Part shown: positions 2-10,602 of the stretch, piece by piece
Layout of the letters: each line of letters opens with the position of its first letter
Position numbering within the stretch: position 1 is the first letter of the stretch
NCBI GenBank assembly: GCA_005223375.1
Contig: RXOD01006258.1
Coordinates: forward strand, 1-10,827
Direction: 5' to 3'
Length of the DNA: 10,827 nucleotides
Source: Amoebophrya sp. AT5.2
Taxonomy: Eukaryota; Sar; Dinophyceae; Syndiniales; Amoebophryaceae
The notes under the pieces: generated by a model
Told to the model about the DNA's origin: nothing
The model's input: only the letters and a program-made list of their open reading frames with translations
Databases searched by the model: none
Translations under genes and position numbers: made by a program

Positions 2-3000
2 GCGGTCCGCGAGCACGGCGCTGCTCGTTCTCTCGTGAGGTGCTTGTACACCTATGTGGACTATGTAAGCCTGGATGGGAATATAGCAGCGGATAACGAA
101 GGGCCGGCTGGGCTAGACACCGACAGTAGTCACAATACTCTGCCGGGCAGCCTCAGGAAGATGGCCTACAATGTATCGAGTGGCAACATAATTAAAGCAG
201 CGAATCCGGTGGCCTTCGGAACCATCAGCAACGACAGCGACGGCGGTGCAGCGCCAGTTGCCCATGAACGCGCTTTCTTGTATTTCCGCATCAAGAACGA
301 CGAGTCCCGGCGCATCTACAGCGGCTGGCTCGAGATTCTGGCGGAGGGGTCCGTAGCTTCGTGTCCGGTGCTACTTGGACGACCTTTCATGCTGGAGTAC
401 GGGGTATGCGTTTGTCATGATGAAGATCCACAATACGCCGTCATTGCGGGCGAAAAGATTGAGATGAGCACGGACGTCGACATTGCCATGGTTGACATCG
501 AGTTTGTGCAGAGGGCGGACGCGGTGCAGGGTAGGTACGTTGCACCATCATCACCCAAGAAGAAGAGAAAGGAGAGACAGATACCTACTCCAGCAACCAA
601 GAAGAAAGCTGCAGCGTTGACTAAAAACAATTCACCACAAGGCAGAACTCTTCTTACATCACCCAGTGGCAAAAGCTTCCTCACCGAGTACCTAACGCGT
701 CGTGCGCAGATTAGCAGGGTGCGAGAGGAGGGAGAGAACGACGAGAAGTACTACACCCTTTCACCAGCCGAACGCGGACTAGTTGCGAAATCCTTCTGTG
801 CACAATCTTTCCGATTTACACCCGAGGAGGACGCCGCGCTGCGGGCGGCGGTGGATGCGGACGTCAAAAGAGCAGTTAACTTCGCCAGCGTCGGCTCCGA
901 CGTGGAAGCAGCGTCGAGAAGCAGTAGTAGTCTTGGTGGACAAGGCGGACCTGTCAGCTGGGGAAGCGACAACGCGGCGGGAGGTGGAAGTGTGGGAGGT
1001 GGAAGTGATGGTAATAACAGCCCGGACGAGGAGGAGACGTCAGAGGAGGAGATGTCGGAGCAGGAGTTAGAAGCACGTCTGCGGCTGGAGTTTCCGGACC
1101 TGTCCATCGGGGCGATCCAGTGGTTGAAGAGGCAGCACAAGTGTCTCGGACACAGCGCCGCGCTTGAACATTTGTTCAAAGGAAGAGCAAAAGCAGCAAT
1201 GAAGAAAGTCCGGAAATATTGTCGCAAATGCATGCGGCAGGACGACGCCGACCAAATCAGGGAACGGGGGTCGCTACTGCAGTTCGCAACGGAGAAGAAC
1301 AAAATTTGGATTTGCGACTCGATGAAGAGCCGTTTGGGGAAGTCTGTCTACATAACAGATGGCTGCACGCGCTTAAAGGTGGCGGAGCTAGCAGATGCCG
1401 ACCAAGGTGGGCTCACTGGCGCCGCGGTGCGGGCGGTAATGCTGATGCGGATGGTCAGCCAAGGCACGGCGGAGAAGATTTTGTTCGACGAAGGCAGCGA
1501 ATTTAACAACGCGCTTTTTGTAAAGGTGTGTCACAGCGTCAACATGAGAACCCACCCTGTAGGGTTCAAGTCGGCGCACCGTATATCGAAGATCGAGAGA
1601 ATGAACGGTGATAACAGGCGGAACGTCAGAAAGTTGACGATGTCGCCGTACGACGATCACGTAGCAGCACTTTTGTGGTCTCGGGCCTCTCAACCCATCC
1701 TCATCGAGACTTTAGACGCGGCGGTGGAGGAATTTTTGAGCACCGAGAACAACTCCGACGAAAATCCGCTCGACATGCAGTTGAAACGGGAATTAATAGC
1801 AGAACATATGGCGCAGCTGAACTCTACGCCCATTTTGGGACAGAGTCTCACACCATACAACCTCGCCTCCGGCGGCTACTACAGTGCGGCACGAGACTGG
1901 GAGCAGCTCCGTGAAGATCTCGCTGAAGGAGAAGAATTCGGCGATGACATGGAGCGGTGGTTCCGGCTCAAATGTCGCATCCAGGCGGCCACCAGGAAGG
2001 TGATACGGCAATACGATGCTGAACAACTTTTGCGGCGCCGAGAAATCGTGGGCCGCTCCTACAAACGGGTTTTAGATCTCTCGCGACTGGAGCCCGGCAT
2101 GCGCGTCTACATCCGACGCGGCGATGGCAAGTTTCGTCGTCACGAAGATGGAGTAGTGACCTCTGTCGCCGACGACGGCGCGTACGTGAAGATGGGTAAG
2201 TCGACGGTGAAGTATCCGCCAAGCGACATTGCGCTCATCACCGACGACAGTACAGGAACCGCGCTCGAACACTACCCGGACGAGGAATTCTCTGATGAGC
2301 TGGAAAGGCGACTCACCGTGTACGACGATGAGGAACCGTTCTTCGCTGATCCGATGACCAGCGTCCAGGGCGGAAGGAGCACGGCATCCACGAAGAGCTC
2401 CGGCGGCAGCGGCATGGGTCACAACTGCCACCTATGCGACAAACAGTGCACTAGTCGCGCACGACTGGTGCAGCATATGGCTGAGAAGCACGGTATTCCA
2501 GAAGAAGAAATCCAAGAACAGCCACAGGTGCCTGCCGTTTTTCGGCGTGGGTCGCGGCGTCTCATCGACTTCGACGACAGCGACGACGAAGACGATGACT
2601 TCAACGACAATCAGGAGCCACTCGCGCCCCCGGCGGTCGATGTCGCGTTCGACGAGCAGGGCAACCCGGTGGACCGCTGGACGGAGACAGCAGAGGCAGT
2701 TGTGCGGTGGCATGTACTTCCACGCAGAGAGCTGTTTACTCCGTCGCCACAAATGTTTCCACATGCCGACGTCTACTCCAAGTTGACAGGGGAGCGAAAA
2801 ACCATCGGACTACTTTTAGATAATCCGCTGGTCGAGGAGACCGCCACCGACAACTGGAAGAGACCAGGTAGTCGAGCGTCGCAGACATCGATGTTCGCCG
2901 ATACGCGATTATGGGTGGGCCGCACGGAGTTCCGGAAGATGCCTTCAATGTTTCTTCGGGAATTTTTGCTGAAGCCGCGTGACAGCAGCTCCAGTTCCGA

Positions 3001-6000
3001 CAACGAGGAGGACGTGTGGCAGGAGGATGATAAAACAGTCACTGTCATCCACAATCGCCCGAGAAGACGCCGGTGTCCGCCCACGAATGCGGACATCACG
3101 CATGAGGTTGCAACGACAATGCTGGAGCCGCGAAGGACCACTACGCAGATCTACGTTGACGACCTTAACCAGCAGCAGGACGAAGAAGACGACTGGAAGA
3201 GAGATAGTTCTGCTTCCTCATCCAGTGATCCGCGAAGCAAAAGAGAGTGGATTGGCCGCGCCGTCTTCTACAAGAAGAAGGACGCGTGGGGAAAGCGCGT
3301 ACTTCCGTTCACGCAGAAATCTAAAACTGCTGGCAGTGCTGTAATGAGCGGCATCGAGGAGGAGTCGAAGGAGGCGGACCGCGAGTCGCGGCACAGCTGG
3401 CAGCAGGAATACGAAAGAATCAGTAGGGAGTCGGAGGAGGAAATCGACAAGGTTCTCGGCGACGGGGGCACTGCCGCTTCTTCCATCATGCGACCTACTA
3501 GAACAACAACACAGCCTACCCGGAGCGGTCCTTACACAAGAGCAGCGTCTTCCTACATGACGTGCGTGCCAGCTCCGGAGAACAAACCGGCAGACGGTCG
3601 CATCTACCTCGGCAAGGGTGGCCGCATCTTCACGGACGGAACTCTGCATTCGTCTATCGCATCCGAGTTGCAGGACTGCATGTCCACGATGGAGCTTAAG
3701 CTGGAGGACGGAAAGTTATACCTTGCTCCTGCGGAGAACGACGTATCAGGATCTGTGGTCCGCGCTTACGACTTCACGGTGATTCCGACTGTCGCTGCGT
3801 TGCTCGAGGGCAAGGACCGCCACGAAGGACGGCTTCGACAGTCCGACGAGTGCTGTTACTTGTTTTCCCAGTTGCTCAACGGCCGCCCCATCAAAGAGTT
3901 GTTGAACGGAAAAGACAGCCGGGATGTGCAGTACGTCGTTACCGGCGTCGAGCTGCAGCGCAACAAAAAGCATGTGAGCAGTCAGCCCATGAAGGGCAAT
4001 TCAGTCTTCCTGCGCTGGGGCGATAACTTGTCCCCAGAGTTCGTGAGCGAGGACAGCAGCACGTGGGCGCCGGCGTCCAACTTCTGGACCGCGAGGATCT
4101 TTTTCGAGACTACCACCAGCGCACACGAGGCGATGCAGGCCTACACCAAAGGCACGAAAAGTTCCGCAATGCAGATCGAGCTCAAGACGGCCGAACAGTT
4201 CGGGTTTGAAAGTTATTTTATCCCGTCTGTCCGAGAGGAGGTGAAGGCCATCATATCGCGCGACGTGTTTGGGCGGAACGCGAAACGCAGCGAGATCAGC
4301 GACCGCAACGTCATGACCAGTCGACTGGTAGTTACTATCAAGATCGACCTCGGAACCGGGAAGGTCAGCAAGATAAAAAGCCGCTGGGTATCTCGCGGCT
4401 TTGAAGATCGCCGATTCAGCAGCAAAAAGAACGAAAACTCGTTGAACTGCAGATCGCACACCATGAGCGATGCCAGTTATCTTCTACTTCTGCAATTCTG
4501 CCAAGCGACGCGGTCTGCAACCTGGAATGCCGACATAAAGGAGGCGTTTCTGGAGGGCATGACCTTTCAGGAGGCGCACGCAGGAAACGAGGACTACTGG
4601 GCGAACCCGAACTCGACGCTGTGGATGACCATTCCGAAGGTCATCCAGGACATGCAGGAATTCGGCTTCGGCGAGGTGGTGGAGTTGGTGAAGTGTATAT
4701 ACGGTTGTAAGGACGCACCTTACAACTGGATGCTCACTTTCCATACTGTCCCGCAGACGATCGGGCTGAAGCAGAGTCTCCTGGACCCGTGCCTGTGGTT
4801 GTGTTTTGCCACGCCACAAGAGGAGGAGGTGCTGAAGGGAGGCTACGACGCAGTAAAAGCATACTTCTACAAGCAGGTTGAAGCCATCGATCTGCTCGAC
4901 AAACAAGACACAGAGGGGATGGCATCGGTGCTGTTGGGCATGAAGCACGACAAGCTGCCGGAATACAAGCCGTCTTCTTCACCAGACTTCATCAACCCCG
5001 ACACCGAGCGACTGGCGCAGGCACTCACCATGCGCGTGCAGTTCAAGGGAACGTTGGTTGGGGCCATCGGGTCGCACGTTGACGACACGAAGTCGGGAGG
5101 ACATCTTCTTTTCATGCTGCGGCTGTACGCCCTTTTCAGGCGTTTCCCACTTGGAAGTTTTTGTCGCCTCGACCCAGGCAGGAGGGATGCTTTCATCGGC
5201 CGCGAGGAACAGTGCGTGCCGGAGGTAGTGGACAAATTCCAAATGCAGCAAATGCTCGAAGCGAAGAAGCAGGAGATCGCGGAAAACAAAATCGAGATTC
5301 CGGACGAGTTCCTCGCCGCCGTCGACGAGCAGGAGCTGCAAGAAGCAGAGAAACAATACAACATCGACAGAGCAACAAAGCCGCACGCGTATGCCAAGGT
5401 TGATTCCATCCAGGTGTCAGCCAAGGTATTGGAGGAGGGATGCCGCATGCAGGAGGAGGTGGTATACGTCGTGGGACAGGAAAACTATGCGACGAAGGTG
5501 AAGCCGATAGAGAAGGAGGAAGTGCTTGAGTATTTTCGACAGCGGGATTTGGCGAAGACCAAGCTCCAGAAGAAACAAGTCGAAAACCCCTTCCGCGGCC
5601 GCATAGGAGAACTCATTTGGAGTTTGAAAGCCAATAGTTGCATCGCCGCCACCGTCTCTGACCTGGCGGGCCAGCTCATCCCGGCGGAAAAGGCGGACTC
5701 ATGGGAACAAGTCATGTTTTACGTGAACGACTTGAGCGGGATCATCATGATGCTTCAGCACTCCGAAGCAAGTTCGCGCCGCGTCGCCCGGCTCGGAGGC
5801 CTCTTCGAGCACTACATGATGGGATGCGGGGATGCGTCGAAGTCGCGGGTCGGTGGTACCCTCAACCTCATCGGCCTACTGAAAAGCAGATTTACAACTT
5901 TGAATTCATTTTCACGAATTCCGCATCGCGTGCACAGCAGCTCCACGGGTATCGAGACCCTCGCCGGGAGGATGGTGTGCAGTGAACTACTTTACCTGAC

Positions 6001-7375
6001 ACAACTGGCGCTGGACCTGCATCTAGTGCGACATGGATCGACCATTTTGCAGTTGGTCGACAGCAAAAACATGGTTTCCGAGCCGCGCGAAAAGAACTTG
6101 GCGTTGGACTTTTTCGCGCTTAGTCAATTGCGCGATGAGGGGATTTTGGCGATGAAGCACATCCCCGGCCGCATCAACTGGAGCGACGCTCTGACGAAAT
6201 CGATCAGAGAAGTTGTTCTCATCCTTCTGTACCTGGCGTCTGTATGGGGCATCTGCGAAAAGGCGGCGGAGACCGTCATTCGGGAATTCATGCAGAAACA
6301 GGAGCGTGAACGGGCACGGAAGGAGCGGACTATCGAGGAGGAAGGGGAGTCTCAGGAGGAGACGCGTCTGATTGCGGATGACGATGAGGAGGACGAGGCC
6401 GCGCTGCCTCAGAATACATCATCTTCGTCGGCGGTCGTGATGAAGACTACGGGAGGACCACTCGCTGCAGGCAAGAAGACGGACAGCTGGGTGGAGACGG
6501 AGGAGACGCTCACGCGGGTGCATGGGCTTCCTCGGCTAGCACGACATACACCATGCAATGTGGATTCCATCACTGCAGAAACAGCGCAAAAGTATCTGCA
6601 GGACAACCGTACTACGAACTACACCTTCGTGGACACACCTCATCTGCAGCTGAAGGAGGAGGACAGCTGGCGGGACCGCTCGCGCGAGCATGCGGTGATC
6701 GCTGGTCGGCGAAAGTGGACCGGAACAACAACCTTCGAGAAGGTACCGGACTCGCCGCGGCTGCTAAAGAAGAAATCTGTAAAGAAGTCGAAGAATGCGA
6801 AAAAGGAGACCCCGCGACTGAGCGTTGCTGGGGCAACAGCGACCTCGACTGCGGGGTCATCCACCAGGTACTCTGTACCTTCTCTACCTGTGATGCCAGA
6901 CTCGTTGGAAAATAAAATTCAATCTTCTGTTGTTTCGGGTGCTGCCTCTCTCCACGACCACCACCAGGAGACGTCCGGGAGGCGGTCGTGGCCACCTTCG
7001 CCCTCAAGGCACCGTGCAGCTGATGCAGGACAAAAATCGCGGTGGTTTGGTCCCAGCATTAAGCAGGCGGAACTGGAGACGAGCGTGTGGCATGAGCACA
7101 CCTCGACGTGGATTTTCGAGCACAACGGCTTTACTACCAGCACGTTTGTGCGACCAGTGAAGAAAAATGGGCAGCCGCAAGACGGAGGTCCAGCTGGAGC
7201 AGAACTTTCAGAACATCGAACTACCGTTTACCGGAATGCAGCAGGAAAAATATGCCAGCACAACGACTACTGGCGGCGACCCGTCGATGAGCGGATGCGC
7301 CGCTTCATCTTCCGACCTGAACATCGAATTCTGCGTGCGATCTTCTACAAAACGAACAGTGGGATGAGAACGTGA
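2..7375 (+). CDS. pol: Giant Ty1/copia-type Pol polyprotein (PR-IN-RT-RNase H), 5' end outside window
   Basis: The polyprotein makes the enzymes for cDNA synthesis and integration. The frame is open to the left window edge. The in-frame codon at nt 35 (GTG, codon 1 here) is not a credible eukaryotic start, and the first ATG (codon 43) lies after the apparent protease catalytic Asp, so the true start is upstream or depends on recoding. Domains seen: retropepsin-like protease about 25-120, SV40-like NLS 174-179, integrase zinc site 368-399 and catalytic D428/D485/E521, C-terminal integrase SH3-like part about 688-732, C2H2 finger 798-819, two copies of a W-rich repeat 882-968 and 995-1080, RT about 1402-1760 with SHVDD 1680-1684, RNase H about 1928-2055 (D1933, E1974, D2009, D2051), two more repeats 2152-2236 and 2352-2439. 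The stop is TGA at 7373-7375. About 2450 aa is far larger than typical copia polyproteins (roughly 1300-1500 aa including Gag); the excess is low-complexity linker plus the repeats. Confidence 0.95.
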   Translation, partial: AVREHGAARSLVRCLYTYVDYVSLDGNIAADNEGPAGLDTDSSHNTLPGSLRKMAYNVSSGNIIKAANPVAFGTISNDSDGGAAPVAHERAFLYFRIKNDESRRIYSGWLEILAEGSVASCPVLLGRPFMLEYGVCVCHDEDPQYAVIAGEKIEMSTDVDIAMVDIEFVQRADAVQGRYVAPSSPKKKRKERQIPTPATKKKAAALTKNNSPQGRTLLTSPSGKSFLTEYLTRRAQISRVREEGENDEKYYTLSPAERGLVAKSFCAQSFRFTPEEDAALRAAVDADVKRAVNFASVGSDVEAASRSSSSLGGQGGPVSWGSDNAAGGGSVGGGSDGNNSPDEEETSEEEMSEQELEARLRLEFPDLSIGAIQWLKRQHKCLGHSAALEHLFKGRAKAAMKKVRKYCRKCMRQDDADQIRERGSLLQFATEKNKIWICDSMKSRLGKSVYITDGCTRLKVAELADADQGGLTGAAVRAVMLMRMVSQGTAEKILFDEGSEFNNALFVKVCHSVNMRTHPVGFKSAHRISKIERMNGDNRRNVRKLTMSPYDDHVAALLWSRASQPILIETLDAAVEEFLSTENNSDENPLDMQLKRELIAEHMAQLNSTPILGQSLTPYNLASGGYYSAARDWEQLREDLAEGEEFGDDMERWFRLKCRIQAATRKVIRQYDAEQLLRRREIVGRSYKRVLDLSRLEPGMRVYIRRGDGKFRRHEDGVVTSVADDGAYVKMGKSTVKYPPSDIALITDDSTGTALEHYPDEEFSDELERRLTVYDDEEPFFADPMTSVQGGRSTASTKSSGGSGMGHNCHLCDKQCTSRARLVQHMAEKHGIPEEEIQEQPQVPAVFRRGSRRLIDFDDSDDEDDDFNDNQEPLAPPAVDVAFDEQGNPVDRWTETAEAVVRWHVLPRRELFTPSPQMFPHADVYSKLTGERKTIGLLLDNPLVEETATDNWKRPGSRASQTSMFADTRLWVGRTEFRKMPSMFLREFLLKPRDSSSSSDNEEDVWQEDDKTVTVIHNRPRRRRCPPTNADITHEVATTMLEPRRTTTQIYVDDLNQQQDEEDDWKRDSSASSSSDPRSKREWIGRAVFYKKKDAWGKRVLPFTQKSKTAGSAVMSGIEEESKEADRESRHSWQQEYERISRESEEEIDKVLGDGGTAASSIMRPTRTTTQPTRSGPYTRAASSYMTCVPAPENKPADGRIYLGKGGRIFTDGTLHSSIASELQDCMSTMELKLEDGKLYLAPAENDVSGSVVRAYDFTVIPTVAALLEGKDRHEGRLRQSDECCYLFSQLLNGRPIKELLNGKDSRDVQYVVTGVELQRNKKHVSSQPMKGNSVFLRWGDNLSPEFVSEDSSTWAPASNFWTARIFFETTTSAHEAMQAYTKGTKSSAMQIELKTAEQFGFESYFIPSVREEVKAIISRDVFGRNAKRSEISDRNVMTSRLVVTIKIDLGTGKVSKIKSRWVSRGFEDRRFSSKKNENSLNCRSHTMSDASYLLLLQFCQATRSATWNADIKEAFLEGMTFQEAHAGNEDYWANPNSTLWMTIPKVIQDMQEFGFGEVVELVKCIYGCKDAPYNWMLTFHTVPQTIGLKQSLLDPCLWLCFATPQEEEVLKGGYDAVKAYFYKQVEAIDLLDKQDTEGMASVLLGMKHDKLPEYKPSSSPDFINPDTERLAQALTMRVQFKGTLVGAIGSHVDDTKSGGHLLFMLRLYALFRRFPLGSFCRLDPGRRDAFIGREEQCVPEVVDKFQMQQMLEAKKQEIAENKIEIPDEFLAAVDEQELQEAEKQYNIDRATKPHAYAKVDSIQVSAKVLEEGCRMQEEVVYVVGQENYATKVKPIEKEEVLEYFRQRDLAKTKLQKKQVENPFRGRIGELIWSLKANSCIAATVSDLAGQLIPAEKADSWEQVMFYVNDLSGIIMMLQHSEASSRRVARLGGLFEHYMMGCGDASKSRVGGTLNLIGLLKSRFTTLNSFSRIPHRVHSSSTGIETLAGRMVCSELLYLTQLALDLHLVRHGSTILQLVDSKNMVSEPREKNLALDFFALSQLRDEGILAMKHIPGRINWSDALTKSIREVVLILLYLASVWGICEKAAETVIREFMQKQERERARKERTIEEEGESQEETRLIADDDEEDEAALPQNTSSSSAVVMKTTGGPLAAGKKTDSWVETEETLTRVHGLPRLARHTPCNVDSITAETAQKYLQDNRTTNYTFVDTPHLQLKEEDSWRDRSREHAVIAGRRKWTGTTTFEKVPDSPRLLKKKSVKKSKNAKKETPRLSVAGATATSTAGSSTRYSVPSLPVMPDSLENKIQSSVVSGAASLHDHHQETSGRRSWPPSPSRHRAADAGQKSRWFGPSIKQAELETSVWHEHTSTWIFEHNGFTTSTFVRPVKKNGQPQDGGPAGAELSEHRTTVYRNAAGKICQHNDYWRRPVDERMRRFIFRPEHRILRAIFYKTNSGMRT
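113..430 (+). other. Pol domain: retropepsin-like protease, apparent active-site variant
   Basis: L-D-T-D-S-S-H-N at residues 27-34 sits where copia proteases carry L-D-[ST]-G-A-[ST]-H. L-L-G-R at residues 113-116 matches the C-terminal [IL]-[IL]-G-[RDN] motif of retropepsins, at a normal distance of about 85 residues. The Gly of the D-T-G triad is Asp30 (GAC at 122-124). The assignment rests on these two motifs and on its position before integrase. There is no other D-T-G or D-S-G candidate between the window edge and the integrase at a suitable distance. Confidence 0.55.
554..571 (+). other. SV40-type nuclear localisation signal in Pol
   Basis: Residues 174-179 read P-K-K-K-R-K, identical to the core of the classical monopartite SV40 signal. 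A second lysine cluster (T-K-K-K, about residue 188) follows within 15 residues, so a bipartite signal is also possible. It lies in the spacer between protease and integrase. Ty1 integrase also uses a basic NLS, though at its C-terminus; function here is inference. Confidence 0.6.
1136..2230 (+). other. Pol domain: integrase (HHCC zinc site, DDE core, SH3-like C-terminus)
   Basis: The zinc-binding site is H368-x4-H373-x22-C396-x2-C399, the copia-type HHCC pattern (H-x4-H preceding C-x2-C). The catalytic triad is D428 (W-I-C-D), D485 (F-D-E-G-S-E-F) and E521 (I-E-R-M-N-G), spaced D-x56-D-x35-E, which is the retroviral/copia DD35E signature. Residues about 688-732, beginning G-M-R-V-Y-I-R-R and ending P-P-S-D-I, look like the SH3-type C-terminal DNA-binding region. 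All catalytic and zinc residues are present, so the domain should be functional. Confidence 0.93.
2426..2491 (+). other. C2H2 zinc finger between integrase and RT
   Basis: Residues 798-819 fit the classical finger exactly: C798-x2-C801-x12-H814-x4-H819. The hydrophobic L811, three residues before the first His, is also in place; the usual aromatic residue between the second Cys and that Leu is not evident. Serine/glycine-rich and acidic low-complexity sequence flanks it on both sides, so it would be an isolated module. Possible roles are binding cDNA or choosing target sites; both are inference. Confidence 0.8.
2678..2938 (+). repeat. W-rich Pol repeat, copy 1 (integrase-RT linker)
   Basis: Residues 882-968. 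Anchors are W882, H893, P896, P903, L917, R921-K-T, D939-x-W941-K-R, W960-x-G-R963 and F966-x-K968. The same anchors occur at the same spacing in three further copies. I do not recognise a known domain. The protein-level repeat is diverged enough that no nucleotide repeat is obvious. Confidence 0.85.
3017..3274 (+). repeat. W-rich Pol repeat, copy 2 (integrase-RT linker)
   Basis: Residues 995-1080. Anchors are W995, H1006, P1009, P1016, L1030, R1034-T-T, D1052-x-W1054-K-R, W1072-x-G-R1075 and F1078-x-K1080. The offsets from the first Trp (11, 14, 21, 35, 39, 59) are identical to copy 1 from His to the second Trp. It is separated from copy 1 by 26 residues, part of which is acidic and Ser-rich. 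Confidence 0.85.
4238..5320 (+). other. Pol domain: copia-type reverse transcriptase
   Basis: Motifs in order: S-R-W-V-S-R-G-F at 1449-1456 (the copia K-A-R-x-V-A-R-G block); D1500-I-K-E-A-F-L-E-G, carrying the first catalytic Asp; L-V-K-C-I-Y-G-C-K-D-A-P-Y-N-W at 1551-1565 (copia L-x-K-x-L-Y-G-L-K-Q-A-P); and S-H-V-D-D at 1680-1684 with catalytic D1683/D1684. Between the L-W-L-C-F strand (about 1588-1591) and the V-D-D strand there are ~85 residues where copia RTs usually have about 20, so an insertion of ~65 residues splits the palm. The thumb/connection is also long before the RNase H. All three catalytic Asp residues are present. Confidence 0.93.
5816..6200 (+). other. Pol domain: RNase H
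   Basis: The copia-type RNase H has its DEDD residues at D1933 (G-C-G-D-A-S), E1974 (T-G-I-E-T-L-A), D2009 (L-V-D-S-K-N) and D2051 in H-I-P-G-R-I-N-W-S-D-A-L-T-K, the standard copia end block. The domain appears intact. It degrades the RNA strand of the RNA-DNA hybrid. It is followed by an unusual ~390-residue extension instead of the short tail normal for copia. Confidence 0.92.
6488..6742 (+). repeat. W-rich Pol repeat, copy 3 (after RNase H)
   Basis: Residues 2152-2236. Anchors are W2152, H2163, P2166, P2173, L2188, R2192-T-T, D2210-x-W2212-R-D, W2228-x-G2230 and F2234-x-K2236. It differs from copies 1 and 2 by a one-residue insertion before L2188 and by Thr instead of Arg after Trp-x-Gly. 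A Lys-rich stretch follows at once. Confidence 0.85.
7088..7351 (+). repeat. W-rich Pol repeat, copy 4 (C-terminus of Pol)
   Basis: Residues 2352-2439, ending seven residues before the Pol stop. Anchors are W2352, H2363, P2373, L2390, R2394-T-T, D2411-x-W2413-R-R, R2434 and F2437-x-K2439. It is the most diverged clear copy: the first Pro is Phe2366 and the third Trp is Arg2431. Its anchors confirm that this frame is the coding one up to the Pol stop. Confidence 0.78.
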
Positions 7376-7647
7376 AGCAGATGTCGAAAATTTTGGGCAA
7401 TTCAAGATCAACATCGGGTTCTTCGCCGACGAAAAGAATACCGGTATTAGAAATATACGGAGGAGATCGGCTACGAACCCCGGCCCTCCAGTTTTGTACA
7501 GGAACTTGTATTTGGGGAGCAGCAGTGCGGCGGTGGAACGTTTGGGAATTCTATGCGGCTTTGCAGGGGCTGCGGCGAATTGGGGGCAGGATGGTGGATT
7601 GGGACGTGAATCAGTGCCAGGCAGGGGCCTGGCACATGCGGTGGATA
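7376..7647 (+). other. Region between Pol stop and proposed LTR
   Basis: No recognisable gene. One frame is open from 7368 to a TAG at 7680-7682 with no ATG until near its end, and another from the GTG overlapping the Pol stop (ATG at 7381) to 7671. Neither resembles a known protein. The stretch contains a perfect hairpin (7614-7635) and some G-rich sequence (for example around 7581-7590), but no clean polypurine tract directly before the proposed LTR start. Confidence 0.5.
7614..7635. repeat. Perfect 9-bp inverted repeat (hairpin)
   Basis: GTGCCAGGC at 7614-7622 and its exact complement GCCTGGCAC at 7627-7635 enclose a four-base AGGG loop. It lies 12 bases before the proposed LTR start. No T-run follows, so it is not terminator-like. 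It might structure the 3' end of the RNA or the plus-strand priming region; that is inference. Confidence 0.75.
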
Positions 7648-7756
7648 TGCTGTCTTCCTACCTTACTCTAAAACAGCACTAGAAACTACACTAACGAACA
7701 AGGAACAGAACTTTGGCACTTGTGTAAAATCACTGCAATCAGTGCACTTTGCTGTG

Positions 7757-7762
7757 TATAAT
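7757..7762 (+). promoter_or_regulatory. TATA-like box in the proposed U3
   Basis: TATAAT occurs in the context GTGTATAATC about 110 bases into the proposed LTR. The position suits a U3 promoter, but the motif is short and AT-rich enough to occur by chance; some protists (dinoflagellates) do not use TATA boxes. Confidence 0.2.
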
Positions 7763-8144
7763 CACTCTGTACCACTTTAGGAACTACTCGGGGCGACAGG
7801 ATATCTTCCTCTGTTTTATTGCCAGACAGCACCTTAAATTCAATCCCCATCTGCAGCTAATTCAGTCTTGTCAATGTGCAGACAACTGTTTCCACTGAGC
7901 CTGTCGTCCGCGATATTCCGTCATCTTTCAGACAAGGAAGAATCTGTCAAAGGCAACTACAAATCGGTATTTTGTTTTGTTCTTTGTTTGGGCAGTGCTC
8001 TCATCGAGATGAGTTTGTTGTTGCTGAAAGCAACGGGAAATGGCAATTCGCGCGAGAGATTCGCATTGGGTGATGGCATTGCCACTGAGAGAACAGTCGG
8101 CAACCACCTAAAAACGAACCGCACTTTCAGACTTGTTTCGATGG

Positions 8145-8178
8145 GAGCCAACGCTTTCGGGCGTTGGCTCAAGATTTT
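8145..8178 (+). terminator. Strong hairpin followed by T-run in the LTR
   Basis: GAGCCAACGC (8145-8154) and GCGTTGGCTC (8161-8170) are perfect 10-bp arms around a six-base TTTCGG loop. AAG and then five T residues follow (8174-8178). In bacteria this would be read as an intrinsic terminator; in an LTR it may mark RNA 3'-end formation or an R-region structure. The 3' arm plus AAG ends in TTGGCTCAAG, the last ten bases of the dinoflagellate spliced leader. Confidence 0.5.
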
Positions 8179-8282
8179 TACCTCAATTTTCAGCAGGGAA
8201 GCAAGGAGTGAGTGGTGCCTACGACGTGTCCTGTCCAAGTAGAAATCAGTCGCATTTCTAATATGGTGAGGCCAGAGCCGTC

Positions 8283-8310
8283 GTGTTAGAAAACCATCTA
8301 CACCTAACAC
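8283..8310. repeat. 7-bp inverted repeat
   Basis: GTGTTAG (8283-8289) and CTAACAC (8304-8310) are exact complements around a 14-base loop, late in the proposed LTR. TGTTAG...CTAACA resembles copia LTR ends but the two arms are only 28 bases apart, so they cannot be the two LTR termini of one LTR. It may be a structural element of the leader RNA. Confidence 0.4.
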
Positions 8311-8387
8311 TTCGGCTATCCCGCGGCAACCTTCGCGACCATCCCTTCGGCGGTTTCCTTCGAGATCGTCGTCTCCGGTCACAGCAG

Positions 8388-8399
8388 GCTGTCGACAGC
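8388..8399. repeat. 12-bp perfect palindrome at proposed LTR 3' end
   Basis: GCTGTCGACAGC is its own reverse complement. It overlaps the last bases of the proposed LTR and precedes the candidate primer site by three bases. It could be a dimerisation-type kissing loop sequence or a site bound by a dimer; this is inference. Confidence 0.5.
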
Positions 8400-8402
8400 A
8401 AT

Positions 8403-8420
8403 TGGAGTCAGATACAAACC
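8403..8420 (+). promoter_or_regulatory. Candidate minus-strand primer binding site
   Basis: TGG at 8403-8405 follows the proposed LTR end (CA at 8399-8400) after two bases, as in many LTR elements where it pairs with the CCA end of a tRNA. I could not match the following bases to a specific tRNA, so the call rests on position alone. Confidence 0.25.
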
Positions 8421-8477
8421 CTAAAACATCATACTTTCTTGGTTCTCAACACCGTGTTTCCGCCGGCGATTCAGTGG

Positions 8478-8687
8478 ATGAACCCCATCTATCCACCGCT
8501 GCAGCAAGGAGAACGCATTCTTTACCACACATCGTTGGGAAGCAGTTATCGACACGGGATTATCATCGCTTTTCTCGACCGCCGTCGCGTCGTTCGCGTT
8601 GTGGACCTGCAATCCGATCGCGAGTACTACGTGACACAGGCCGAAACGAAGCGTGTCTCACAAAACGAACCAGAGCCGGAGCCTTGA
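8478..8687 (+). CDS. Small leader ORF 1, 69 aa, possible SH3/Tudor-like protein
   Basis: Starts at the first ATG of the leader and stops at TGA 8685-8687. I do not recognise a family. It begins G-E-R-I-L-Y then has H-G-I-I-I, a run of alternating hydrophobic residues rich in Arg/Val, and ends in E-P-E-P-E-P. This is similar in layout to the next ORF (G-D-Q-V-Q-F ... Q-G-K-I-I ... E-P-E-I-E-P), so the two look like diverged tandem duplicates. The pattern G-x-x-[VI]-x-[YF] ... G-x-[IV] recalls small SH3-type barrels (Tudor, KOW, integrase C-terminus). The ATG has T at -3, a weak initiation context. Only ten bases separate it from the next ATG. Confidence 0.6.
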   Translation: MNPIYPPLQQGERILYHTSLGSSYRHGIIIAFLDRRRVVRVVDLQSDREYYVTQAETKRVSQNEPEPEP

Positions 8688-8697
8688 TTACTCTTTT

Positions 8698-8919
8698 ATG
8701 CATTTTGCGGAAGGAGATCAAGTGCAATTTCTCATCATACAATTCTTGACCAGCGGGAGATACGTTGATATTGTTGCACAGGGGAAAATCATACGTGTGA
8801 ATCCAGAATTCGACACCGTTATCATCAGGGAGGAAGAGACCAAGGTACTGTACGAGCGCTGCTGCCAGGAAGTCGAGCTGCGCGAACCGGAGATCGAACC
8901 AGCACCAGCCGCAATTTAA
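8698..8919 (+). CDS. Small leader ORF 2, 73 aa, possible SH3/Tudor-like protein
   Basis: Starts at the second and last ATG before Gag and stops at TAA 8917-8919. An upstream in-frame GTG at 8653 would overlap ORF 1 and is not needed. The protein opens F-A-E-G-D-Q-V-Q-F, has G-K-I-I-R-V-N and D-T-V-I-I strands, a Cys pair (C-C) and an acidic Pro-Glu tail. No known family is recognised; resemblance to ORF 1 suggests duplication. Its ATG also has T at -3. Gag follows after 81 bases. As an accessory protein unique to this element it could bind RNA, Gag or integrase; none of this is shown by the sequence. Confidence 0.6.
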   Translation: MHFAEGDQVQFLIIQFLTSGRYVDIVAQGKIIRVNPEFDTVIIREEETKVLYERCCQEVELREPEIEPAPAAI

Positions 8920-9000
8920 CAGCGACCAGGTCATTCTCTACTCTATTTTTCCTCACTGCGACGTACTACTGCTGGTCTACAAGACCGAAGTACAACGAAA

Positions 9001-10602
9001 ATGAGCTGCTTCTCGGGTTTGGCGACCGCATTTTGCGGCGACCAGATCAAGGAAGAAGCCAACCGCATGCGCGAGTTGGAGCGCCTGCAAGAAGAAAACG
9101 AAAATCTAAAAAACGCGGTTCTGTCGCCGACGGCTTCGCCGACGAACAAGAAGTGGTTCGAAAAGAAGCTGGAAGGCGAGTTGAAGAAGCTGGACGACAA
9201 GCATGCGGGGGAAATCTGCGCGTGGCAAAGCCAGATCAACGAAAAGACCGCTGAAATGAACGAACTGCGAGCGGAGAAGGCGAGCTTAGAGGTTAAGCTG
9301 TCCGCGGAAAAATCGCGCATCTCGGCGTTGGAGGGGAAGGTCCATGACCAGTCCGGCGTGTTGGGGAACTTTAAATCCACGATCGACGGGTTGGGATCCA
9401 GACGTGACTCTACCGACATCGAGGCGGACGTGCTGCCGCGTGCTTTCCAGATGGACTGGGAGCAGCTGCGCGAGCTGGAAGTCATCGAGCGCAGCTCCAA
9501 CGAGCCGCGCCACGTCTCCGACAAGTACCGCGAAATGCAGAAGAAGCTGCAAAAGCCGCCGCAGATCGCCGGAAAACCGTTTAGGGAGTTTGCGACCGAC
9601 GTGTACGCCTGGGTGAAGAAGCTCTACCCGCTGGGCAATTCTTTCGACGAGCTGGGGGAGGAGCTGTTGGAAGGAGCGTTCGTGGGGGCGCATCACGAAA
9701 AACAGCGCGCGAAAGCGGCGGGCCCAGACATCATCAAGATCATGACCTCCATGACCACGCAGATGTCGCCGTTAGTGGACACCGTCGAACAGCAGCTGGA
9801 GCGCTACCTGCCCAAGGTGGTGCGCAGGGACCAGTACACGCCAATGGCGCACTACCATCTGATGCAAGATGTGTATGATCTCGAAAAACAGGTTTGCGGA
9901 AATGACCGCTCCGACAAGAACAAATGGGAACGCACGGCGTCGTCGCTCCTGTTGGACAAACACTCGGAGGTCGCAGTCCGCGCGGCGTACAAGCAGTCGG
10001 CAGAAAACAACTTCGACCTGCTGGGCACCACGCTGACGGTGCTAAACTGCGACGAGGACGTCGGGCGGTACGAGTATATGACGACGCACAAGCTGAAAGG
10101 GAATCCGGAGGACTTTCTCGACCGCGTGTTCCAGGCGCTGGGAGAGGGAGCTGTCGGCACCGATCAGCGCCGCAAAGTGCAGTCCGTGAACAACTTCTAC
10201 AAATCCATCGGTGTGCAGCAGCAGCAGCAATCGGGTCATTCCTTCTTCGGCGGGGGCGACCAGTTCAACACCGAAAAGCCTCCTCGCAGAGATGGAGCTG
10301 AAACGCCGCGCGCGGGTAACCAGACGCCGCAGGCGGGAAAGCGCTTCACGCAGGAGGAAATCAAGGAGATGCAGAAGAAGCCCTGTCAATTTGGGAAGAA
10401 GTGCTACAACCTGATGAAAACCGGAAAGTGCCTCTTCAAGCACACGAAGGAAGAGCTGACGCACTGTTTGCAGTGCTTCGAGCGTGACTACCCGGACAAG
10501 GCAGCGGCGCGTAAGAAGGAAAAGGAGGACCGGAAGAAAAAGCAGGAAAAAGCTGCTGCGGACAAGAAAAAGGCGGAAGCGGCTGCGTCTGGGACTTCGT
10601 GA
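9001..10602 (+). CDS. gag: Gag-like structural protein with coiled coil and CCCH finger
   Basis: 533 aa, starting at an ATG with A at -3 (strong context) and ending at TGA 10600-10602. Residues about 17-128 form a long charged heptad-rich coiled coil. Residues about 145-400 are a mixed, mostly helical region with no recognised motif, in the place of a capsid domain. Five Gln occur at 406-410 (CAG repeats with a final CAA). A zinc finger lies at C462-x5-C468-x8-C477-x3-H481, and the last ~40 residues are Lys/Glu/Ala-rich and basic. The layout (assembly region, capsid-like middle, C-terminal zinc finger, basic tail) and location before the expected Pol start fit Gag. The normal copia knuckle (C-x2-C-x4-H-x4-C) is absent and replaced by the CCCH finger. 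Direct capsid homology cannot be confirmed by eye. Confidence 0.75.
   Translation: MSCFSGLATAFCGDQIKEEANRMRELERLQEENENLKNAVLSPTASPTNKKWFEKKLEGELKKLDDKHAGEICAWQSQINEKTAEMNELRAEKASLEVKLSAEKSRISALEGKVHDQSGVLGNFKSTIDGLGSRRDSTDIEADVLPRAFQMDWEQLRELEVIERSSNEPRHVSDKYREMQKKLQKPPQIAGKPFREFATDVYAWVKKLYPLGNSFDELGEELLEGAFVGAHHEKQRAKAAGPDIIKIMTSMTTQMSPLVDTVEQQLERYLPKVVRRDQYTPMAHYHLMQDVYDLEKQVCGNDRSDKNKWERTASSLLLDKHSEVAVRAAYKQSAENNFDLLGTTLTVLNCDEDVGRYEYMTTHKLKGNPEDFLDRVFQALGEGAVGTDQRRKVQSVNNFYKSIGVQQQQQSGHSFFGGGDQFNTEKPPRRDGAETPRAGNQTPQAGKRFTQEEIKEMQKKPCQFGKKCYNLMKTGKCLFKHTKEELTHCLQCFERDYPDKAAARKKEKEDRKKKQEKAAADKKKAEAAASGTS
10384..10443 (+). other. CCCH zinc finger in Gag
   Basis: C462-x5-C468-x8-C477-x3-H481. 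It resembles RNA-binding CCCH fingers (usually C-x7/8-C-x5-C-x3-H) but with the first two spacings exchanged. Flanking Lys residues favour RNA binding. It stands where retroelement Gag proteins carry a CCHC nucleocapsid knuckle. Confidence 0.75.

Follow-up and report, generated by a model that had tools for sequence, protein, structure and literature searches.

What does a small protein module do when it stands four times inside one retroelement polyprotein, on both sides of its reverse transcriptase? The question is raised by a stretch of DNA from Amoebophrya sp. AT5.2 (contig C2462, 10,827 bases, called the window in the following), which carries the Pol frame of a Copia-type long terminal repeat (LTR) retroelement. 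An earlier note made from the letters of this DNA had read it as an unrecognised folded module repeated around the core of reverse transcriptase (RT) and RNase H, and this reading is supported by the present analysis, in which the genome of the same organism was searched (50.7 Mb in 2,759 contigs). Profile comparisons have placed the four segments in a single family of domains of about 90 amino acids. Our first choice for their function, ahead of nucleic-acid binding, is that they serve protein-protein assembly of the Pol enzymes; we infer this from sequence and structure models and give it a probability of about 0.4.

Four copies of one domain

The note had placed two copies between integrase (IN) and RT and two after RNase H, with the common pattern W-x10-H ... 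R-[TK]-T ... D-x-W ... F-x-K. The pattern is present, the segments lie at the places given, and the order of the motifs in Pol confirms the layout. When each copy was scored with a hidden Markov model (HMM) built from the other three, copy 1 obtained 31.6 bits (E 8e-12 for one sequence), copy 2 43.6 bits (1.9e-15), copy 3 48.0 bits (6.3e-17) and copy 4 -1.6 bits, which is not significant. The window alone thus supports three copies and not the fourth.

The fourth copy is brought into the family by its relatives. A profile of the main type of the domain, built from 52 members outside the window, finds copies 1 to 4 with 95.6, 84.1, 79.6 and 15.6 bits and nothing else in the window Pol, and the top score among 1,000 shuffled Pols was 5.3 bits. 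The converse profile, built from 18 relatives of copy 4 outside the window, gives 77.2 bits to copy 4 and 9.7, 8.7 and 4.3 bits to copies 1, 2 and 3; the top shuffle was 5.9, so copy 3 fails to exceed the shuffles that way round. Compared profile against profile (hhalign), the copy-4 type and the main type gave 97.4% (E 1.5e-11), and the controls, nine other Pol segments against both profiles in 18 comparisons, all stayed at or below 0.6%. A repeat in Pol is therefore significant for copies 1-3 by self-comparison, and for copy 4 once the relatives are added.

A family absent from the libraries

That the module is unrecognised also held: there was no convincing sequence match in Pfam, NCBIfam, PHROG or the PDB. 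Among the 55 main-type members no Pfam family matches more than one with E<=1, the best value being E 0.014. The best values for the four window copies were E 0.044 in NCBIfam and E 0.38 in PHROG, and the main-type profile of 55 members found no PDB chain at E<=10; this search, too, gave no sequence similarity to the little-finger domain of Y-family polymerases. A structure search with the predicted models described below returned no credible PDB match, all listed fold matches being weak, and the literature, searched through titles and abstract openings, contained no description of such a domain. On present evidence the sequence comparisons make it a new family, apparently undescribed, in a Copia-like lineage.

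The searches outside the genome depend on shared words or conserved peptides and are a narrow, weak test of other organisms. A protein search with copies 1-2 (2,140 candidates) returned the same gene only, as the EukProt gene model P0001, and a search with the 55-row domain alignment, covering short proteins only (143 candidates), returned none. RT plus RNase H (6,383 candidates) found P0001, eight further EukProt proteins (P0002-P0009) and one ENA protein, P0010. The eight are taken to belong to the same genome from their numbering and from pieces identical to its sequence; in P0010 (29% identity over 22% of the query) the domain profiles find nothing. Nothing came from IMG/VR, scanned with RT, with copy 3 and with alignments of Pol and of copy 1, from GTDB contigs, scanned with the alignment of copy 1, or from plasmids, where copy 1 was used in tblastn, all under the same dependence on peptides or words. 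A similar pattern, W..H..PR..P..R.T..W.G.T.F, may occur in dinoflagellate Copia-like proteins.

Conserved residues and predicted fold

Five residues (W8, E10, R23, P29 and R48) are found in 55/55 main-type members, and H19, D66, W68, W84, G86 and K92 in at least 50 of the 55. The conserved residues are mostly W, P, G, R, D and E, and the invariant ones look like core and turn residues. In the copy-4 type, which is the C-terminal one, R23 lies outside the conserved columns and H19 is found in 14/19. The isoelectric point (pI) ranges from 5.35 to 10.96 among the 55 main-type members and from 5.87 to 9.88 among the 19 of the copy-4 type. A catalytic role is unlikely, since R23 and H19 are not invariant across the types and the range of pI is wide.

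AlphaFold2 (AF2) models of copies 1 and 3 are confident and beta-rich, with predicted local distance difference test (pLDDT) values of 83 and 86 and with a like order of strands. Against the possibility that the segments are disordered or unlike each other, these two are ordered and equal in strand order, as read from the separate models. To judge from copies 1 and 3 the fold would be small and beta-rich, with five strands and one or two short helices, and the motifs W-x-E, R-x-H-x2-PR, R-x-T, D-x-W and W-x-G-x-T-x-F-x-K would lie on or near strands. The linkers in the window are of low complexity and acidic, Ser-rich or basic. The linker between copies 3 and 4 (window 6758-7066) is strongly basic, with a net charge of +13 and a pI of 11.1, and the one before copy 3 is acidic.

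Distribution among related elements

The scanned loci of the genome hold 74 instances of the domain on 35 contigs, 55 of the main type and 19 of the copy-4 type; counts here and below come from match tables and are lower bounds, and contigs may be cut. The nearest group consists of 14 contigs, the window and 13 whose RT shares 56-68% identity with it. Where the order is visible it is protease-IN-finger-copy 1-RT-RNase H-copy 3-copy 4. Copy 1 is found in 14/14, copy 2 in 2/14 (the window and C2099), copy 3 in 12/14 and copy 4 in 13/14 of these elements. A PSMF tail after copy 1 (window 2942-2953) is shared by 12/14 and is perhaps a linear motif.

In a second group (C826, C1927, C1995, C2048, C2114 and C2599) a copy stands before the protease, and C826 has further copies after RNase H and at the C-terminus. 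C2172 carries one copy after a CCHC Gag-like part, a joint judged by eye with no protease or IN match in the stretch examined, and another 0.7 kb before its RT match. A tandem pair follows RNase H in C2582, C2053 and C1906.

A domain match is found on 34 of the 37 contigs that match the window RT, the three without one being C2203, C1595 and C710 (a 72-aa RT piece); a closer look at 2-kb stretches of C1595 and C2203 revealed no domain. Pfam RVT_2 scores above its cut-off on 13 contigs, seven of them domain-bearing. Six (C1868, C2156, C736, C1238, C1735 and C2142) are unmatched by six domain queries, so the domain marks particular lineages. It was not seen in host genes by the domain queries made in this genome, no dedicated search being made. 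An outlier on C340 was considered as an instance outside the elements and rejected: it is about half a domain, by eye near that of C602 (a contig with a CCHC Gag-like frame), and looks like the relic of an element.

The RT matches in the genome have 25-68% identity to the window RT, and 40/42 lack an internal stop. With window 2678-4000 as query, a DNA search returns the window alone. Within the limits of the RT and DNA searches, open families that have diverged from one another are numerous, and few decayed copies can be seen.

Tree and selection

The tree was made from the 74 instances, with few columns, a bootstrap that is not fully settled and six unlabelled rows. The copy-4 type forms one side of a branch with 19 rows (support 100/98), the 14 rows at the copy-1 position in the nearest group make up a clade (100/98), and copy 2 of the window is joined to the second C2099 copy (98/84). 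From the copy-1 and copy-4 clades it follows that their splits from the other copies predate the radiation of the elements, copy 3 not being included, and that those two positions retain their own version of the domain.

Among 40 pairs of instances more than 55% identical, the ratio of nonsynonymous to synonymous substitution rates (dN/dS) was computable in 16 and lay between 0.10 and 0.27. Only three pairs have dS <1, all between C2211 and C2522, and their ratios are 0.10 for copy 1, 0.16 for copy 3 and 0.27 for copy 4. In these codon comparisons the relatives show purifying selection.

One might hold that the similarity is coincidental or of low complexity and that no functional module exists, given that the window by itself lends no significance to copy 4. 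However, copies 1-3 are far above the 1,000 shuffles and copy 4 is above them, orthologues stand at fixed positions in many elements, dN/dS is low in the relatives and the AF2 models are ordered. This explanation is refuted at the level of sequence, and we give it almost no credence.

What the domains may do

In a Copia-like Pol the domains occupy the junctions of the enzymes: ahead of the protease in some elements, between IN and RT, and twice after RNase H. We propose that they would be protein-interaction modules which remain as tails after cleavage, copies 1-2 on mature IN and copies 3-4 on RT-RNase H, and that these tails would bind each other or Gag. Such binding might keep the enzymes in one assembly, both within the virus-like particle and within the pre-integration complex; the domains would then be docking parts which keep IN, RT-RNase H and Gag associated after the polyprotein is cut. 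Docking is what one would expect from the same kind of module at several joints, in distinct conserved versions and with acidic or strongly basic linkers. The wide spread of charge, together with the lack of a plausible catalytic set common to both types, also speaks for docking or scaffolding over an enzyme or a generic nucleic-acid binder.

The charge can be read in another way. The sheets of the domain might grip template RNA, the tRNA primer or cDNA, and so make RT more processive or shape the choice of target by IN; other polymerases carry added DNA-binding parts of comparable role. The median pI values of the two types, 9.05 and 9.3, would be accounted for by nucleic-acid binding as well and are the first of several points that weigh against assembly. 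We regard nucleic-acid binding as possible, though somewhat less likely than assembly.

The other points against assembly concern the copies, the tree and the models. The sister elements C2308 and C2454 show no copy 3, and C2454, which beyond RNase H was assessed through search tables only, no copy 4 either; with these gaps and with copy 2 in 2/14 the number of copies varies, so not all of them are essential. The position labels are not clean clades, with six changes for the place after RNase H, three for IN-RT and three for the place before the protease; the copies 3 of the nearest group spread over a comb that is partly unresolved, and the columns are few for 74 rows and the bootstrap unsettled. 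Of the 40 pairs 24 are saturated, including the sole pair with a row from the window, and one partner of the best-measured pair, C2211, has an RT interrupted by a stop and a copy 1 cut short at its end. Folding covered copies 1 and 3, from AF2 alignments of 9 rows.

The positions of the copies bear on two further explanations. The modules might read chromatin or a host protein, like chromodomains, and steer integration or nuclear import. Copy 1 follows IN and the zinc finger, and targeting parts sit after IN in other elements, chromodomains being found at the end of Gypsy integrases; but copies are also found before the protease and after RNase H, and the Pfam chromodomain matches 0/55 main-type members (E<=1) and nothing in the whole window Pol. 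Host targeting thus seems improbable to us. The domains might also be folded plugs which make sites in the linkers accessible to the protease and ensure that the polyprotein is cut in the right order. Copies with identified neighbours do sit at enzyme boundaries, and those of the window are flanked by the low-complexity linkers described above. A spacer does not, however, need conserved versions specific to a position, and tandem copies at one joint, as copies 1-2 and the pairs after RNase H in C2582, C2053 and C1906, would be redundant; such a role is about as doubtful as host targeting.

The earlier note had named binding to protein or to nucleic acid and polyprotein processing as possible roles; assembly of the Pol enzymes through protein contacts remains our first choice. 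A bolder form of it, which we consider unlikely, is that a new fold or family was multiplied by the Copia-like lineage within its Pol, each enzyme joint coming to carry a version of its own, and that its paralogues on the IN tail and the RT-RNase H tail would pair and rebuild a single machine for replication and integration after cleavage.

The Pol frame and its surroundings

The features of the window are collected in Table 1.

Table 1. Position of the domain copies and other features in the window
Feature	Position	Strand	Basis and remarks
Domain copy 1, between IN and RT	2678..2938	+	HMM, tree, AF2 (pLDDT 82.8, predicted template modelling score (pTM) 0.75)
Domain copy 2, directly after copy 1	3017..3274	+	HMM, tree
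Domain copy 3, directly after RNase H	6488..6742	+	HMM, AF2 (pLDDT 85.9, pTM 0.78)
Domain copy 4, divergent C-terminal type with NGQP..GGP insert, extreme end of Pol	7088..7351	+	Profiles, tree
Pol frame, Copia-type LTR retroelement	2..7375	+	2,457 aa from base 2; no internal stops; 5' end beyond window
Aspartic-protease-like segment, LDTDS...LLGRPF	110..410	+	Motif and matches in relatives; borders approximate
Integrase, HHCC-type zinc site and D, D, E motifs	1136..2371	+	Motif positions and matches; borders approximate
C2H2-like zinc finger between IN and copy 1	2399..2506	+	Weak zf-C2H2_jaz match, E 0.086
Reverse transcriptase, HVDD active-site motif	4199..5161	+	RVT_2 20.3 bits, below cut-off; matches on 37 contigs
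RNase H	5849..6451	+	Motifs and segment matches
Gag-like frame with CCCH-like motif, downstream of pol	9001..10602	+	Open frame and matches in the genome

The earlier note counted residues from a GTG at base 35, and the frame itself is read from base 2. Motifs and segment matches give the order protease-IN-zinc finger-domain-domain-RT-RNase H-domain-domain. IN lies upstream of RT-RNase H within a single Pol frame, as in Ty1/Copia elements. A Pfam scan of the whole Pol found RVT_2 and the weak zinc finger and nothing else. The window RT reaches 20.3 or 24.4 bits against RVT_2 (PF07727), under the curated cut-off of 31.6, which is exceeded by the relatives C2454 (31.7) and C2378 (35.3). The HVDD of the RT active site is at window 5075-5086, and the distant protein P0010 reads AHVDD. 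The finger between IN and copy 1 recurs in relatives of the nearest group and in C826.

No LTR-like pair was found within the window, which starts inside pol, and related contigs look permuted; the repeats in the window are four two-copy direct repeats of 20-33 bases, with no inverted repeats. Matches to the Gag-like protein number 45, on 34 contigs of which 33 bear the domain, and 42/45 are free of internal stops. A Gag-like frame follows the end of pol in the window (7375-10602), C2177, C826, C2211, C1927, C2114, C1962 and C2454, and the N-terminal half of Pol comes again after Gag in C2211, C1927, C2114, C1962 and C2454. Such contigs (10.8-12.8 kb) look circularly permuted and may be circles, tandem copies or collapsed repeats. 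In C826 (19.9 kb) there is just the downstream Gag.

The gene model P0001 of the window Pol opens with a foreign RT-RNase H bearing YTDASW, which looks DIRS-like. In C1595:7000-9000 a different RT lies antisense beside a Pol of the lineage, and by eye it resembles the foreign part of P0001.

Comparison with known systems

The domain would be one that has been gained, multiplied at the joints of Pol and kept in distinct versions at no fewer than two positions (at least 2), in dozens of elements of one genome. It offers a testable system for how the enzymes of a retroelement remain together after processing, and a candidate new domain family for the annotation of protist genomes.

The window Pol resembles that of Ty1/Copia in the order protease-integrase-RT-RNase H, in the HHCC and DDE motifs and in the separate Gag-like frame with a zinc motif. 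It differs in an RT far from RVT_2 (20.3 vs 31.6 bits) with an HVDD motif, and in the addition of four domains and a C2H2-like finger. The chromodomain of Gypsy chromoviruses is likewise a small module joined to Pol after integrase, whereas the domain described here is multicopy and also stands before the protease and after RNase H.

LTR retroelements are described as rarely carrying additional domains, and a survey of plant LTR elements in 121 genome assemblies lists 15 non-canonical ones, among them PMD, G-patch, AIR1 and CHROMO, all in Gypsy-type elements (PMC9289625). The survey states no gain of a domain in plant Copia and mentions envelope-like genes in some Copia lineages; against that background a multiplied domain in a Copia-type Pol is unusual. 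The two cases are alike in that an additional conserved domain became fixed in an LTR lineage, and they differ in that the present one is in a Copia-type Pol and multiplied inside it. Retrotransposons bearing a DNA methyltransferase are known from Symbiodinium and a charophyte and are LINE, DIRS or Gypsy elements, those of the Gypsy type in the charophyte being under purifying selection with Ka/Ks below 0.2; the abundant Copia elements of Symbiodinium are given there as without the methyltransferase (PMC5890265). As in Amoebophrya a domain has been added to retroelements of algae or protists, but in the methyltransferase elements, as that source presents them, the addition is a known enzyme.
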